DNA of 46,326 nucleotides from Desulfosoma sp. (lineage in GTDB: Bacteria; Desulfobacterota; Syntrophobacteria; Syntrophobacterales; DSM-9756): positions 1 through 46,326 of the forward strand of contig JBBFKY010000015.1 of assembly GCA_037481875.1 (NCBI GenBank). Direction: 5' to 3'. Made by a program: the position numbers and the translations under genes. Under the pieces are notes generated by a model. That model ran no database searches, was not told where the DNA came from, and worked only from the letters and a program-made list of their open reading frames with translations. Shown in pieces: positions 423 through 6,434 of this stretch. The number at the start of each line of letters is the position of its first letter. Within the stretch, counting starts at the first letter, position 1.

Positions 423-541
423 GAAGGCACCTAGCGGGTGAAATGGTGACAGGAGAGGCTAAAGCACAAAAGCAAATGAAATTCAGTACGATACATCCGG
501 CAAGATACTTTTCTTTATAGACACAATCTCACGGATTAAGG
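1..541 (-). mobile_element. IS1380-family element, terminal part, decayed
   Basis: Read on the minus strand, the tip at 541 starts CCTTAATCCGTGAG. The same tip occurs at 7405 on the plus strand, and a close variant (CCTGAATCCGTGAG) lies at 45742. About 180 bp from the tip inwards is alignable with 7405-7580 in inverted orientation. Deeper in, the strand encodes pieces of an IS1380 transposase. The element runs off the left window edge. Its tip lies directly against the end of the truncated hsdS gene, so the insertion interrupted hsdS. Family assignment rests on the transposase motifs and is confident; a named IS cannot be given. Confidence 0.85.
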
Positions 542-880
542 GTTTTGATAGTAGCAGGCCCCTATCTGCCGATTCCATATCGCTGTTCGCCCGATGTCTC
601 CTCCTTCACAAACCAATAGGTCACCGGCTTTCAACCCAAGCTTTCGCTCTTCAGCCTCTTCAAAGTGCATGTAGTCCAGAGTGGAGAGGTCCACTCGCCC
701 CCACAAGACGTTAGCGGTTCGCAGAAACGGACGCATTGGAGAGCCGGAGCGCGACTTCGGCGAGAGAGACTTTCCCTGCTGTATTTCAAAAACCTCCCCC
801 AACCGCACCACCCGCCACTCTTCGGGCAGGGGGCCGAGTTCGGTCAGGCGGAAACCGGCGGGCAAATCCTCGAGTTTCAT
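536..880 (-). pseudogene. hsdS: Type I restriction-modification specificity subunit HsdS, truncated by IS
   Basis: HsdS chooses the DNA target of a type I methylase or restriction complex. The 114-residue product has the classic start of the first target-recognition domain (GPLPEEWRVVRLGEV, then LRTANVLWGRVDLS and GDLLVCEGGDIGR) and breaks off after ACYYQN, where full proteins continue for roughly 300 more residues. The last codon and the stop (Pro-TAA) come from the IS1380 tip at 541. Starting at 880 is chosen because that ATG overlaps the PIN-gene stop (877-879) in an ATGA junction, implying translational coupling. An upstream in-frame ATG at 916 is possible but buried in the PIN gene. The fragment lacks the second recognition domain, so it is probably non-functional unless the remainder beyond the IS is used. 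Confidence 0.88.
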
Positions 881-1374
881 GGTTGCTTCTCCCATGCCTT
901 CAGGCGCCTCTGACATTCGTTTGCCGGCAGTCGGCTGCCTTGCGCCAGCATCTCCCGCAGCGCGTGGGCGGCAGCTGCGGTGGTGAGCAATCCTGCGGCT
1001 ACCAGCTCATCCAGCAGCCACAAGGTGCCGCGCACGGTAACCCCGTTCTGCTCCGCCGCCTCTCGCAAACGGCGGTTGCTGGTCAGCAGGATCGCCCGCT
1101 CGCGTTGTGCCAGCACCAGATGCGCCCGGTCGTATACAGTGAGGGCGGAGTAACGGCTACCGATGGCGATGATCTGCGAAATGTCCTCCCCAGATAACGC
1201 CATGACTTGCAATCCCAAACCGTGCAATGTGTCCGGCGTAGGATCGTTCAGTTCCGCCATCGCCAGGTCGGAAATCATCCAGTCGGCCTCCAAATGGAAC
1301 AGTGACTGCAATATGGCACCACGTGCACAGTCAATCAACACGCTGGCATCAATAACGCAGCGGAATCTCCTCAT
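877..1374 (-). CDS. PIN-domain protein (putative toxin, VapC-like nuclease)
   Basis: This 165-residue protein has the PIN fold pattern of a small metal-dependent RNase: Asp9 in CVIDASVLID, Glu41 in AMAELND and Asp83 in TVYDRAH. A LLTSNRRLREAA block follows, in which the usual fourth acidic residue is Asn101. It overlaps the upstream XRE-ImmA gene by 26 bp and the downstream hsdS fragment by 4 bp, so the three are one translational unit. XRE/ImmA genes followed by a PIN gene are a known toxin-antitoxin-like arrangement, which makes the neighbour the likely controller. Whether it is an active toxin is not shown, and the Asn substitution is a reason for caution. Confidence 0.8.
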   Translation of the reverse strand: MRRFRCVIDASVLIDCARGAILQSLFHLEADWMISDLAMAELNDPTPDTLHGLGLQVMALSGEDISQIIAIGSRYSALTVYDRAHLVLAQRERAILLTSNRRLREAAEQNGVTVRGTLWLLDELVAAGLLTTAAAAHALREMLAQGSRLPANECQRRLKAWEKQP

Positions 1375-2413
1375 GCGGGCGTTGTACCTCGATCATGAAT
1401 TGCGTCAGGGGCTTGCCCAGGAGTTCCGCTGCGCGTTCGGGTCCGATCACATCGTCGCGCAGGGCTCGCAAGACCAGCCGCTCAAGCCGCGTGCTAGATT
1501 CGCACGGGTAGGGGGCGCCCGGCTCGGTGATGTGCCATCCCTGGCTGCGAAAAGTCCGATAAAGCTTCTGTGCCGTCTGCGGGGAGATGATCGCCAAATC
1601 CTGAGCGCGGTGCACCCAGCCCTGCATGCTTAGCCCGTACTTTTGCTTGAGCAGATGAAGCTCCACGAGATCCAAGGAATGGCGTCGCCAGCCTAACTCG
1701 TTGAACACCGTCGGCTTGGCAACCAGGAAGGCAGCGGCGAAACGATTGGCCGCCTGCTCAACTCGTGCTTCGCTCCACGTCTCCGGCAGATCCAACACCA
1801 GATGCGCCAGTTCATGCGCCATGCTGAAACGCTGGCGATCCCCAGGCGCGTCCTGCTTAACGACGATCACCGGCGTCACCCCGTTGGCCACTAGCGAAAG
1901 TGCGTCAAAGTGGTCGTTCCCCGGCACAAAGCCCACTTTGATTCCAACGGCTTCCAGCGTTTCGGTCAGGTTGGGGATGGCATCTAACCCCAGTTGCCAG
2001 GCCTCGCGCAGGGCAATAGCAACGTCCTCTACCTGGTCCAAATGCGCTACCTGGCGGGAAAAGGTGGGCATAACAAACGATCGTTCTTCGCCGAGCAGGC
2101 ACTCGATGGTCGTGTAGCGTTCCAGCCAATCCTGCACCTGGGCCTGAACATGAATCTCTGCCCGCCGCGTCATACTGCTCCGGTGGCGACGATAGACCGG
2201 TTCGGTCAACGTCACCGTCTGCGGCCGCAGCAGATATTCTATGCTGACCCCCAGCGCATCGCTCAGGCGCAGCAAAACGCCCGAGCCGGGCATATCTTCG
2301 TTGCGCTCATATTTCGAGATGGCTTGTGCGCTCACGCCAACCCGTTCTGCCAGAGCACGCAAGCTCAAACCTGCGCCTTGGCGACTGCTCTTGAGCCGTT
2401 CACCGAGTTGCAT
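1349..2413 (-). CDS. XRE-family regulator with ImmA/IrrE metallopeptidase domain
   Basis: The 354-residue protein starts with a helix-turn-helix of the XRE/Cro type (about residues 5-60, with VGVSAQAISKYERNEDMP). It continues into an ImmA/IrrE (DUF955) zinc peptidase domain with HELAH at 200-204 and a candidate third ligand Glu near 220 in VEQAANRFAAAFL. Proteins of this design act as repressors or as proteases that relieve repression. The start ATG follows a GGGAGCAGGGG ribosome site. About 40 bp upstream a strong promoter sits inside a 40-bp inverted repeat, so autoregulation is likely. It is probably the antitoxin or controller of the PIN protein encoded next. Confidence 0.88.
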   Translation of the reverse strand: MQLGERLKSSRQGAGLSLRALAERVGVSAQAISKYERNEDMPGSGVLLRLSDALGVSIEYLLRPQTVTLTEPVYRRHRSSMTRRAEIHVQAQVQDWLERYTTIECLLGEERSFVMPTFSRQVAHLDQVEDVAIALREAWQLGLDAIPNLTETLEAVGIKVGFVPGNDHFDALSLVANGVTPVIVVKQDAPGDRQRFSMAHELAHLVLDLPETWSEARVEQAANRFAAAFLVAKPTVFNELGWRRHSLDLVELHLLKQKYGLSMQGWVHRAQDLAIISPQTAQKLYRTFRSQGWHITEPGAPYPCESSTRLERLVLRALRDDVIGPERAAELLGKPLTQFMIEVQRPHEEIPLRY

Positions 2414-2452
2414 GGCCCCTGCTCCCCTGAAATGTTCTCACGATTCACCTTG

Positions 2453-2492
2453 CGGTTTACATTGTAATAGATAATCTATCATTTGTAAACCG
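2453..2492 (-). promoter_or_regulatory. Promoter and nested operator of the XRE-ImmA/PIN operon
   Basis: On the minus strand TTTACA (2489-2484), a 17-base spacer and TACAAT (2466-2461) form a near-consensus sigma-70 promoter. It coincides with two almost concentric inverted repeats: outer arms of 9 bp (2453-2461 and 2484-2492) and an inner 13-bp palindrome ATAGATAATCTAT (2467-2479). A dimeric XRE repressor bound there would cover both promoter hexamers. Confidence 0.8.
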
Positions 2493-2559
2493 AAAGGAAC
2501 TCGGAGTGTGGCCCGCGATTAGCGAGAGAACCGGAACCGCGTTGAGAGGTCAACCTGTG

Positions 2560-2615
2560 CACCTCCAGCAGGGGGGCTGAGTTCAGTCATCTGGAAGCTG
2601 GGGGGAGGGCCTCCT
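2560..2615 (-). pseudogene. Relic of an hsdS 5' end (middle copy)
   Basis: The minus strand here reads PPSFQMTELSPP in one frame. This matches the start of HsdS (GFRLTELGPLP at the true gene, GFPMTELGPLP at the relic near 4087). The DNA core at about 2567-2588 differs at a few positions from the cores at 825-846 and 4066-4087. There is no start codon and no continuation into a recognition domain. It lies between the Fic gene and the promoter of the XRE gene. Confidence 0.65.
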
Positions 2616-2830
2616 CACGCGGCGCGGCGGCGCGCCCGGTCCCGTTGGCAGGTGCGTTCATCGCTTCCGTCCTCCGTTCTCGGTCGCACCGGTATCCCGG
2701 GCAAGGCGTGCCGGGCGGCGACTTTGGGTACTCGATTCGGTCATTCGGTTTCTCTCCGGCGATTTGTACTAAGTTTCAATTCTCTCTGGGCAAATTATAC
2801 TTTTTCGCCCAAAAGTTTAATTTTGAACAA

Positions 2831-4015
2831 CTACGCCGGCCCTTCATCGTGGATCACGTCCAGGATTTCTTGCGCTGCATAGGTCTTGCCGTAAGAGCCT
2901 TCACTGATCAACTGCAAGATGCCTGCCTGAACAAGTCGTTCCACGTTCTTTTGGGCACTGGGGTAGGTAACGTTCAACATACGCTGCGCTTGTGGTATAG
3001 TGAGTATCGGTGTCGTGTAAAGACTATCCGCCAGACGCAAAGCCAGGGCCGACGTCCGCGCCTGGGTCAGGCGCGCGCGCCAGCTTTGCTGCAGGTCTTG
3101 CAGCTTTTTGGCACGGATCGTTGCATCCAGGGCCTGTTCGGCCACACCGCGCAGGAAGAAGAGCAGCCATTCGCGCCAGGCCCCGCGCTCGCTTACCTCC
3201 AGCAACAAATCGTAATAAGCCTGGCGGTGACGATGAAAATACGCGCTCAGGTAGAGCAGGGGCAGCGGCAGCAGATCCCACTGCACGAGCAACAGCGACA
3301 GAAGCAGGCGCCCAATGCGACCGTTCCCGTCTACGAAGGGATGGATGGCCTCAAACTGGTAGTGCACCAGCCCCAGGCGGATCAGCGGCGGATAGTCGTC
3401 CTCGCGGTGCAGGTATTTCTCCAGCGCGTCCAGCGCCGCGTGCATCTCCGCCGGGGGTGGGGGCACAAAGGTCGCCTCGTTCAACGTGCAGCCGGGCGGA
3501 CCGATCCAGTTCTGCGTGCGCCGGAACTCGCCCGGCGTGGTATGTCCGCCGCGCACACCGGCCATCAGCCGCTCGTGCAGCTCACGGATCAGGCGCAGGC
3601 TGACCGGCAAGGTCGTCAGGCGCTTCAGACCGTACTCCAGCGCGTTCACGTAATTCAGCACCTCGCGTACATCCGATTCGGGCACGGACGACTCCATGCC
3701 GGGCAACGGCAGTTGTCTCGCCTCGTAGGCATACAAGTCGGTAATATCCGCCCGCGTCCCCTCGATGCGCGAGGAAAGCACCGCTTCACGGCGCACAAAG
3801 GGGCCGATGAGCAGATGGGGATTGGACATGGTGCGCCCTAAGCCGGCCAGCTCGCTCAGGGCCCGGTCCGCCGCGGAAAGTACGGCGGTTAATTCCCAAT
3901 CTGCCGGCAGGCGCGGCGGCAAGGGGTTGGGCACGAAAGCCCAGTAAGCCGTGTCCCCCTGTCCAACCCGGATGACTTTTCCGGATGTGCTATTTTCAAA
4001 TCGCTTCGGATCCAT
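2831..4015 (-). CDS. Fic-family protein (putative AMP-transferase, class II)
   Basis: Fic proteins usually transfer AMP from ATP to hydroxyl groups of target proteins. The 394-residue product has the complete catalytic motif HPFVDGNGRIGR at 225-236. It also has an N-terminal inhibitory helix motif SSRIEG at 81-86 (the S/T-x-x-x-E-G/N pattern whose Glu blocks ATP binding). The C-terminal 100 residues look like a winged helix (ILTIPQAQRMLNVTYPSAQK). The ATG at 4015 follows AAAGGA. It sits between two hsdS relics inside the hsdM-hsdS interval, so it is a passenger of the restriction-modification operon. The target is unknown; a toxin or regulatory role is an inference. Confidence 0.9.
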   Translation of the reverse strand: MDPKRFENSTSGKVIRVGQGDTAYWAFVPNPLPPRLPADWELTAVLSAADRALSELAGLGRTMSNPHLLIGPFVRREAVLSSRIEGTRADITDLYAYEARQLPLPGMESSVPESDVREVLNYVNALEYGLKRLTTLPVSLRLIRELHERLMAGVRGGHTTPGEFRRTQNWIGPPGCTLNEATFVPPPPAEMHAALDALEKYLHREDDYPPLIRLGLVHYQFEAIHPFVDGNGRIGRLLLSLLLVQWDLLPLPLLYLSAYFHRHRQAYYDLLLEVSERGAWREWLLFFLRGVAEQALDATIRAKKLQDLQQSWRARLTQARTSALALRLADSLYTTPILTIPQAQRMLNVTYPSAQKNVERLVQAGILQLISEGSYGKTYAAQEILDVIHDEGPA

Positions 4016-4055
4016 GAATTTGTCCTTTGGGTTGCCTTCTCAACCTCTGCGCGTC

Positions 4056-4124
4056 TCATGTTTCCGGCAGGGGGCCGAGTTCGGTCATCGGGAAGCCGGG
4101 GGGAAGAACGGTATACTCGCTCAT
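4056..4124 (-). pseudogene. hsdS 5'-end relic coupled to hsdM
   Basis: A 22-codon reading frame starts at 4124 with an ATG overlapping the hsdM stop (ATGA), exactly where hsdS starts in ordinary hsdMS operons. It ends in TGA just after the HsdS-like sequence GFPMTELGPLPE. A 22-bp stretch (4066-4087) is identical to 825-846 in the truncated hsdS and lies in the same reading frame. I read it as what remains of the original hsdS start after other genes entered the locus. Confidence 0.8.
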
Positions 4125-5656
4125 AGCGCCAGCCCCATTTCTTTCAGCACGTCGCGCAGGGCGCGGTCCGCCGCCGTCCGTTCCTCCTCAGCCTCGCGCA
4201 GCAGTACCATAGCTTCCTCCAATGGCAGAGTTTCCTCCTGCCCGTTTACGCTGACGTAGCGACTAGGAGAAAGGTTATAGTCATTGCGGGCGGCATCCTC
4301 GCGGGTGATAATCGCGGCAAACCCTTCCTCGGCCCGCCAGCCGTGATATACGTTCGCGATGGCGGCGATGTCGGCGTCGGTCAGGTAGTTCTTGGGCCGG
4401 CCTTTGCCATAGCGCCGGCTGGCGTTGATGAGCAGAATCTCGCCGGGGTGGCGCTTTTTGCGGTGGATGACAATGATCACTCCCGGCGCGGTGGTGTTGT
4501 AGAAAAGATTTTCGGGCAGCAGAAGCACCGCCTCGATCAGATCTCCCTCCACGAAGGCCTTGCGGATATCGCGCTCGCGGTTAGAGCCCTGGTTGCCGCT
4601 ACCGCGGCTGACCGCGCCGGTATCCAGCACGACCGCCATGCGCCCGGTCTCATTGAGCGAGGCCAGCATGTGCTGCAGCCAAGCCCAGTCGGCGCTGGAG
4701 GCAGGCGGGATGCCGAGGCCGAAACGGTCGTAGGGGTCGTTTTCGTAGAGATCGGTCGGGAAGTTCTGATTCCACATCGGGTTGGCCACCACGACGTTGA
4801 AGGTTTTCAGGCGGCCAGCGTCGTCCTTGAAGGCTGGGTGGCGCATGGTGTCGCCGATGCGGATGTCAGCCTCCAGGTCGTGGATGACGGCGTTCATACG
4901 CGCCATCGCAAAAGTTGCCGAGTTGATTTCCTGCCCGAAAAGACGCAGCGGCTGAAGGGAGGTCGGCAGCCGCCGCCGGTTGTTCTCCTGGACGCCGTGC
5001 GTTTCCAGCAGGCGCAGGTGGCATTTGATGAGCAGACCGCCGGAGCCGCAGCAGGGGTCGTAGATGCGCTCACCCGGCCGCGGCTCAATGAGCCGTGCCA
5101 TGAGCACCGCTACTTCGCGCGGGGTGTAGAACTCCCCGGCGCTCTGGCCGCTATCTTCGGCGAACTTGCGCAGCAGGTACTCGTAGGCGCGCCCGAGCAC
5201 GTCCGGCTCCACGTCGTCGAGACCCAGCCGGTGGCGGGAGAGTACCTCAATGAGCTGCGCCAGGTAGTCGTCCGGGACAATGCGCTGTCCGGCTGTGGTG
5301 GCGTTAAAGTCCACTATGTCAATCACGCCCTGCAGGCGAGGGTTCTCGCGGGCCACAGCGCGGACTGCGTCGGTCAGGTACTGGCCCAGGCCGGCTGGGG
5401 CGTGGGTGCGGATCGCCTCCCAACGTGCGTTTGCCGGTAGGTAGAATCGCACGAGTCGGTGATCTTGCTCCACCAAGCGCGGGGCCTCCTTGCCCAGTTC
5501 GGTCTTCAGATGCGCCACTTCATCGTCAAAAACATCGGACAGCCGCTTGAGGAAGCCCAGCGGGAGAATATAGTCCTTGAATTTGGCGGAGTCTACAGGC
5601 CCGCGGATGGCGCAGGCGGCGTCCCAGAGCCAGGTTTCCAGTGTCGTTACATCCAT
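4121..5656 (-). CDS. hsdM: Type I restriction-modification methyltransferase HsdM
   Basis: HsdM transfers methyl groups from S-adenosylmethionine to adenine in type I systems, guided by HsdS. The 511-residue protein has the N-terminal helical domain, the AdoMet-binding motif DPCCGSGG (about residue 199), the catalytic motif as NPMW (about residue 291; this variant of NPPY/F occurs in many HsdM proteins), and the late block RNDYNLSPSRYV. Start 5656 is chosen for the GAGGATGG ribosome site just upstream; an in-frame ATG at 5701 lacks one. The stop overlaps an hsdS relic by 4 bp. No hsdR lies in the window, and hsdS is broken, so methylation by this locus is doubtful. Confidence 0.93.
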   Translation of the reverse strand: MDVTTLETWLWDAACAIRGPVDSAKFKDYILPLGFLKRLSDVFDDEVAHLKTELGKEAPRLVEQDHRLVRFYLPANARWEAIRTHAPAGLGQYLTDAVRAVARENPRLQGVIDIVDFNATTAGQRIVPDDYLAQLIEVLSRHRLGLDDVEPDVLGRAYEYLLRKFAEDSGQSAGEFYTPREVAVLMARLIEPRPGERIYDPCCGSGGLLIKCHLRLLETHGVQENNRRRLPTSLQPLRLFGQEINSATFAMARMNAVIHDLEADIRIGDTMRHPAFKDDAGRLKTFNVVVANPMWNQNFPTDLYENDPYDRFGLGIPPASSADWAWLQHMLASLNETGRMAVVLDTGAVSRGSGNQGSNRERDIRKAFVEGDLIEAVLLLPENLFYNTTAPGVIIVIHRKKRHPGEILLINASRRYGKGRPKNYLTDADIAAIANVYHGWRAEEGFAAIITREDAARNDYNLSPSRYVSVNGQEETLPLEEAMVLLREAEEERTAADRALRDVLKEMGLAL

Positions 5657-5831
5657 AATCCATCCTCGCTTTGAAAGGTTTTCTTCGATCAGGTCATCCA
5701 CGTCCTGCTTGCCCGAGCCGGTGGCAGGTCCGGGTGCGGGGCGGAGGTCTTTTGCCGGCTGTTATTGGGTGTTTTGTGGCAGGTTAGGCGTCCGATCGGC
5801 TGTTCTCGTGAATCCCGGCGTCCGAAACGAC

Positions 5832-5863
5832 AAAACGCCCCGCCTTCCGTACTTGACGGCGGG
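5832..5863 (-). terminator. Possible rho-independent terminator upstream of hsdM
   Basis: On the minus strand CCCGCC and GGCGGG (5863-5858 and 5844-5839) can pair around a 13-base loop, followed by GCGTTTTG. The T run is short. It would end transcription arriving from the right before hsdM. Confidence 0.35.
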
Positions 5864-6434
5864 CGGGTCCTGGGGCGGAATCACTTTCGCCGCGCGGGAC
5901 CACACACCAACTGGCCTGCGCCTGGAGCTGTGTTGGTTTTAGTTTCTAAATCGAGAAAGCGACGTGTCCAAGTTTTCAAAGTTTCGTCTTTGATGTATTT
6001 TCGAAGCAGGTGGGAGGCGCCTCTCGCTCCCCCAAACTACTAACCCGAGACTATCTCTTTCCTTGGGGGCACGGGCCACTGATCCGCTCATTTTGGGAGC
6101 GGAGTTTCCACGCTTCCGGATGAACCGGCGACTTGAGGCATAGATCGTGCCGCGCCGTAGCCCTACAGGCCCATATTATAAAACTCGCTTTGGGAACTGC
6201 CACAAACCAGGTGGTTCTCGAAGGGGCGTTGATTTTCTCGGGTCGCCGCCTCAGAAAAAAAAGTTCTCGCTCTCAAACCTTGTCAATTCTTGGTGCGACG
6301 GCCCACAACCGCCGCCATCTTTATCTGAACTCTATCGTTCATCACCCCAGGTTCCTAAGGATCACGTGGTTTGCTATCCCACAGGAGTATGGTAATTTGA
6401 CAAGGTAGCAGGAAACTTGGGTAAGGAGTGCGCC
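5864..6434. other. Intergenic stretch without a supported gene
   Basis: Short reading frames occur on both strands, but none has a ribosome site or a recognisable family. Upstream of the nuclease gene at 6435 the sequence is more AT-rich than the island genes. I see no convincing promoter or repeat. Confidence 0.5.

Follow-up and report, generated by a model that had tools for sequence, protein, structure and literature searches.

Remnants of hsdS start sequences between defence-type genes support stepwise loading of a Type I restriction-modification operon in Desulfosoma sp.

Organization of the locus

We analysed a Type I restriction-modification (RM) operon in a 46,326-nucleotide stretch of Desulfosoma sp. 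DNA (positions 1-46326, the start of contig C15, accession JBBFKY010000015.1; hereafter the window), in which accessory genes lie between hsdM and hsdS and are separated by short copies of the hsdS start, or leader. The minus-strand order is hsdM, a 22-codon leader frame, Fic, a degenerate leader, XRE-ImmA, PIN-DUF3368 and hsdS (Table 1). The foreign genes between the hsd genes are all on the same strand as hsdM and hsdS, and each matches a defence family in PADLOC. Pfam searches confirmed the Fic, XRE-ImmA and PIN assignments of a first-pass annotation made from the sequence alone.

Table 1. Features of the hsdM-hsdS region in the window.
Feature	Position	Strand	Evidence
hsdM, Type I methyltransferase, 526 aa	4121..5701	-	Pfam N6_Mtase 2.4e-92, HsdM_N 7.3e-20; PADLOC MTase_I 3e-246
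Copy 1, 22-codon hsdS leader, ATGA overlap with hsdM stop, 22-bp core 4066-4087	4056..4124	-	Sequence; leader profile 37.4 bits; colinear with L021 hsdS start
Fic, class II	2831..4015	-	Pfam Fic_N/Fic; PADLOC SoFic 6.6e-119; motifs; 84% identity to L058 Fic
Copy 3, degenerate former N-terminus of hsdS, ATG 2661, core ~2565-2590, one-base frameshift	2550..2662	-	Alignment with L058; profile core match
Palindrome GGTTTACA-N22-TGTAAACC, sigma70-like promoter inside (TTTACA-N17-TACAAT), upstream of XRE-ImmA gene	2454..2491	-	Layout in L053, L090, imperfect in L055
XRE helix-turn-helix (HTH) + M78/ImmA protease-like protein (HELAH), RmrA-like (RosmerTA antitoxin family)	1349..2413	-	Pfam HTH_3, Peptidase_M78; PADLOC RmrA 4.2e-48
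PIN-domain protein, DUF3368 tail, putative toxin	877..1374	-	Pfam PIN 1.1e-6, DUF3368 2.7e-6; weak PADLOC PDC-S70 4e-4
Current hsdS, truncated, 114 codons, part of first target-recognition domain (TRD1) only, leader core copy 825-846	536..880	-	Pfam Methylase_S 2.2e-5, profile 1-76 of 168; stop at 536
Multicopy repeat, insertion sequence (IS)-like, cuts hsdS, holds contig end	1..541	.	20 genome matches, ~14 long at 82-90% identity

The PIN stop codon overlaps the hsdS ATG. The first-pass annotation had placed the true hsdS 3.2 kb beyond the hsdM stop; an hsdS start is indeed present at 880, but the gene covers only half of one target-recognition domain (TRD) before a multicopy repeat, within which the contig ends, cuts it at base 541, a truncation that had gone unnoticed. 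No matching hsdR was found in the assembly: the sole hsdR detected is part of a different system, on contig C6, and the contig edge limits this search. With hsdS truncated and hsdR elsewhere the host RM system is not seen as complete and active, a reading that is partly limited by the assembly; completeness is not a strict requirement for the class of embedded defence genes. In the Thermoflexus locus L058 hsdS (4864-6150) is likewise interrupted in TRD1, as judged by eye by an IS1-like element.

Repeated hsdS leader sequences

The sequences at 825-846, in the current hsdS, and 4066-4087, in copy 1, match at 22 of 22 positions in direct orientation and in the same codon phase, as had been reported. 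No same-strand repeat in the locus is longer, and those in 200 third-order Markov shuffles reached at most 16 bp; a whole-genome search returned no further copies within 3 mismatches. The 22-mer encodes TELGPLPEEW, the conserved start of HsdS. The frame holding copy 1 opens at the ATG at 4124, overlapping the hsdM stop as described in the first-pass annotation, and runs to 4056, encoding MSEYTVLPPGFPMTELGPLPET followed by a stop codon.

The third, degenerate copy that had been noticed between Fic and the XRE-PIN unit is real and extends beyond the core. It reads as a leader only with a frameshift, for which reason it scores only 5.0 bits, the threshold of our profile. The interval from the Fic stop to copy 3 aligns to the interval from the Fic stop to the hsdS leader in L058 with a score of 185, compared with 67 +/- 10.5 for shuffles, and because a functional hsdS starts at that point in L058 we read copy 3 as the old start of an hsdS that stood behind Fic.

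Recombination between 825-846 and 4066-4087 had been proposed to delete the three accessory genes and turn hsdM-hsdS on, as a reversible excision switch, and the 22 bp of in-frame identity are what such a switch would use. However, six other, unrelated loci from several phyla (L023, L025, L033, L054, L056, L058) carry the 22-mer without mismatch in their working hsdS leader, and nine further loci match at 21 of 22 positions. The match in the window thus reflects conservation of the leader rather than upkeep of a site for recombination; unrelated hsdS genes would often yield identical copies here, so a perfect match is no proof of recent exchange or of a switch. No recombinase was found among the slot genes and no excised copy in the assembly, the window hsdS lacks a detected hsdR partner in the assembly, and as hsdS is already broken excision would merely restore its start. 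We consider such a switch highly improbable.

Two other kinds of rearranging locus were compared. The window resembles phase-variable hsdS loci, in which hsdS is duplicated (PMC7394358), insofar as hsdS sequence is repeated within one locus; it differs in that the repeats span only ~20 codons, are direct, and occur without a recombinase and without silent TRD copies, and neither a recombinase nor inverted repeats with alternative hsdS copies were found in the slot. An integron-like array would have an integrase and an attC-type site at each cassette; the slot has no integrase, and its separators are coding hsdS leaders. Silent-site identity between loci is 0.51 in the leader, higher than in all 90 hsdM windows (maximum 0.49, median 0.39), which is modestly suggestive of exchange at the leader.

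Earlier states of the locus in relatives

We compared the locus with 80 relatives retrieved from genome contigs by means of HsdM, and with genomes of Thermaceae and of the same order. The HsdM nearest to that of the window is from Meiothermus rufus (L021; 83% identity, sister with 98% support in the SH-like approximate likelihood ratio test, SH-aLRT). L021 has no genes between hsdM and hsdS, and its hsdS leader, at +35, sits where copy 1 does in the window; the window is colinear with L021 through the leader, after which L021 runs on into hsdS. Locus L058, from a Thermoflexus metagenome-assembled genome, has the order hsdM-Fic-hsdS, is colinear with the window over hsdM-Fic, and has its real hsdS start aligned to copy 3. 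The window is a mosaic, with its HsdM closest to L021 (83%) and its Fic siding with L058 (84%).

A second pair of loci has the same relationship. L022 is organized as hsdM-SMC-hsdS, and L037 is colinear with it at 73% from hsdM through SMC as far as the last leader residues (RLG[D/E]V). Beyond the leader, new genes fill ~700 bp of L037; they are followed by another leader and by a TRD1 that differs from that of L022, and homology resumes in mid-hsdS and continues downstream, so that the hsdS body differs between the earlier and later states.

This difference bears on whether the leader alone was duplicated. A circular or tandem unit of a gene and one leader could integrate by crossover at the resident leader, which would leave the hsdS body in place and double the leader, with deletion between copies as the reverse reaction. 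The arrangement of a gene between two leaders fits this, as do the shared TRD1 type of the window and L058 and the likeness of copies 1 and 3 around the core. The differing hsdS bodies of L022 and L037 do not, and the window TRD1 is nearer to that of L033 (81%) than to that of L058 (63-69%). Neither a circle nor a recombinase was found, and efficient RecA exchange needs longer identity than the leader offers. Duplication of the leader alone is thus unlikely.

Recurrence of extra leader copies

The hsdM-hsdS gaps of the oriented HsdM relatives were scanned with a leave-one-out leader profile at a threshold of 5 bits. There were 7 extra leaders in 56,246 gap positions, compared with none over threshold in 969,438 control positions. 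They fall in 5 loci (two each in the window and L098, one each in L037, L055 and L079) and separate gene units: SMC from nucleotidyltransferase-like genes in L037 (assigned by eye; no Pfam match), PIN from XRE-PIN in L055, and AlbA_2-GmrSD from SIR2-HerA in L079. In L098 a nucleotidyltransferase reading frame opens with a leader-like stretch. Each remnant breaks off in the interval from 1 codon before the leader tryptophan to ~8 codons past it, with no more than ~100 bp separating the remnant from the next gene or that gene's promoter.

The first-pass annotation had itself raised the possibility that the repeats derive from separate full hsdS genes that were later deleted. This applies in part: the copies are earlier hsdS starts whose bodies are gone, but the slot varies among relatives. 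In such a history full hsdS genes would have been duplicated in tandem, their bodies deleted afterwards, and the accessory genes would have entered independently by chance; L048, with an extended hsdS region containing 2.7 kb of hsdS-like sequence, and L037, which retains a slightly longer relic, are consistent with it. Against it, an accessory gene or its promoter stands directly behind every relic, nearly all relics stop at the leader, and L058 and L021 represent earlier states with a single hsdS. We judge this history improbable.

A different duplication, of ~30 nt of the hsdM 3' tail, lies between Fic and AlbA_2 in L069/L070 (+1303 to +1332, counted from the hsdM stop) and was seen in these loci only (one event; score 42, control maximum 30). 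As a mirror image of the leader scars it would fit joins that vary around the hsdM-hsdS border. A match to the hsdM tail in the window (score 36) lies inside Fic and was taken as chance.

Occupancy of the hsdM-hsdS slot

The gap between hsdM and hsdS is occupied in 36 loci (window included) and empty in 32. Empty slots, or slots filled with other defence genes, occur in dozens of unrelated bacteria, and Thermaceae alone show both states. On the HsdM tree there are 19 changes between empty and occupied, at least 10 of which are forced by well-supported (starred) branches. Occupants identified by Pfam and PADLOC are AlbA_2/HATPase, SMC-like, Fic, XRE-ImmA/PIN, GmrSD, SIR2-HerA, Piwi and PIN genes, and further a Y1 transposase-like gene, a DarT-plus-macro-domain protein, and MerR with a reductase. 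The stepwise loading of one slot suggested by the first-pass annotation, which had called for a comparison of relatives, is borne out by these empty and occupied relatives, by other genes lying between hsdS-start repeats (L037, L055, L079, L098), by the two comparisons of earlier and later states, by the absence of leader copies from controls and by the forced changes on the tree.

The Y1 transposase-like gene (IS200-like/RAYT-type) is frequent in the slot (L024, L027, L043, L065, L070, L077, L078, L186). Three occupants have no informative Pfam family, L023 10628-15616 (1662 aa), L036 5155-6102 (315 aa) and L098 10371-11873 (500 aa), the last of which matches the PADLOC candidate PDC-M11A; all three are candidate new defence genes. 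Leader-pattern sweeps of 400 genomes each, one in the phylum of the window and one in the class to which the Roseilinea locus belongs, turned up few genuine hsdS leaders, most matches being unrelated 'TDFGPLLE' sequences, which indicates that the system is patchy. A plasmid search with HsdM gave only relatives below 40% identity, two of them with RhuM after hsdM.

Probable displacement of resident hsdS genes

The leader copies are probably scars: each would mark an hsdS start that was displaced when an accessory gene, together with an hsdS, entered the hsdM-hsdS slot, one arrival following another. Starting from an ancestral locus with overlapping hsdM and hsdS, a segment with Fic and its own hsdS would have attached directly after the leader of the resident gene (~20 codons from the hsdS start), whose body was lost while the leader remained as copy 1. 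Next would have come the XRE-ImmA/PIN unit, bringing a promoter and an hsdS of its own; of the Fic-linked hsdS the start would have stayed behind as copy 3, and last a repeat element would have disrupted the newest hsdS. We infer that each arrival carried its own hsdS, the left join being illegitimate and the right join made through homology in hsdS/hsdR. Recognition domains past the leader are variable, and an old hsdS body could be hard to see; the distances from remnant to next gene are short, however, and so leave no room for a hidden one. It is these short remnants, together with the different hsdS body in the L022/L037 pair, that favour displacement.

Several points weigh against it. Scars are absent from the majority of occupied loci, so genes must enter more commonly by ordinary recombination through hsdM, and because hsdS TRDs often swap on their own a changed body says little in favour of displacement. 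The earlier and later loci are 70-80% identical at the DNA level and are not conspecific strains, and none of the loci compared captures a junction in the making. L058 has no recognisable copy-1 scar before Fic; a degenerate copy there seemed plausible by eye, but 167 of 2000 shuffles aligned equally well and we make no claim for it.

More tentatively, the conserved hsdS leader might act as a recombinase-free docking site for defence genes that move across phyla in units with an hsdS leader and line up, one after another, behind the older leaders. We are doubtful of this extension; if true, a Type I operon would hold a legible record of past arrivals.

Embedding of defence genes in Type I operons is already known. 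In enteropathogenic Escherichia coli (EPEC), DarTG2 lies between hsdS and hsdR at a site called a potential recombination hotspot (PMC12255303), and a guilt-by-embedding survey of defence genes in restriction operons is cited in PMC12988326. The window is like the EPEC case in having foreign defence or toxin modules at a recurrent position in the operon; it is unlike it in that the slot is hsdM-hsdS, not hsdS-hsdR, and that leftover hsdS leaders part the successive units. The leader scars appear to be undescribed: no description of them was found in the literature searched, which left most subscription papers and bioRxiv outside its scope. Scars of displaced hsdS genes give the order, direction and breakpoints of single events, and the loading mechanism therefore becomes testable. 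Embedding in restriction operons is widely used to discover new defence systems, and this slot, with several unannotated occupants, is a convenient place to look for new defence genes in thermophiles.

Predicted functions of the embedded genes

The catalytic HPFVDGNGRIGR and inhibitory SSRIEG motifs of Fic are both intact. The protein thus has the Fic motif HPFx[DE]GNGRxxR and the N-terminal inhibitory motif of SoFic, and is a predicted member of this anti-phage family, which acts by abortive infection through AMPylation (PMC12249575). It shares with SoFic the class II organization with Fic_N, Fic motif and inhibitory motif; it differs in that AS1, the conserved small antitoxin encoded downstream, was not recognised in the stretch from Fic to copy 3. 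An A/T-rich imperfect palindrome, AAATTATACTTTT...AAAAGTATAATTT, is conserved after Fic (window 2740-2830, L058 4460-4540) and is possibly a putative operator or promoter for the hsdS that follows.

The second unit consists of an HTH-ImmA (RmrA) protein beside a toxin gene, as in RosmerTA, where RmrA proteins are paired with varied toxins, including PIN-like ones (PMC10440598). The window pair corresponds in having an HTH-ImmA protein partnered with a PIN-like putative toxin, and differs in that this toxin is a DUF3368 PIN protein and in its position between hsdM and hsdS. The layout of the 38-bp palindromic promoter is kept before homologous genes in L053 and L090 and imperfectly in L055; from this we infer that the XRE-ImmA gene is probably autoregulated, and given the overlap of the PIN stop with the hsdS ATG the same promoter may also drive hsdS. 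We propose that the cargo would provide SoFic-type AMPylation and a RosmerTA-like toxin-antitoxin, both defence of the abortive-infection style, and that it is expressed within the RM operon or from its own promoter.

In three loci (L053 10768-11838, L055 4036-5103, L090 3268-4329) the C-termini of the XRE-ImmA proteins weakly resemble UPF0175 (E 0.0003 to 0.01), a likeness that was not detected in the window XRE-ImmA protein; this segment might be the antitoxin part for the DUF3368 PIN partner.

Elsewhere in the same genome, on contig C14 (L139 6696-8698), a frame that is DUF3800-like by eye lies directly before an orphan-looking hsdS, with a methylase and a helicase adjoining, and in L098 a gene assigned to DUF3800 by Pfam likewise precedes hsdS.

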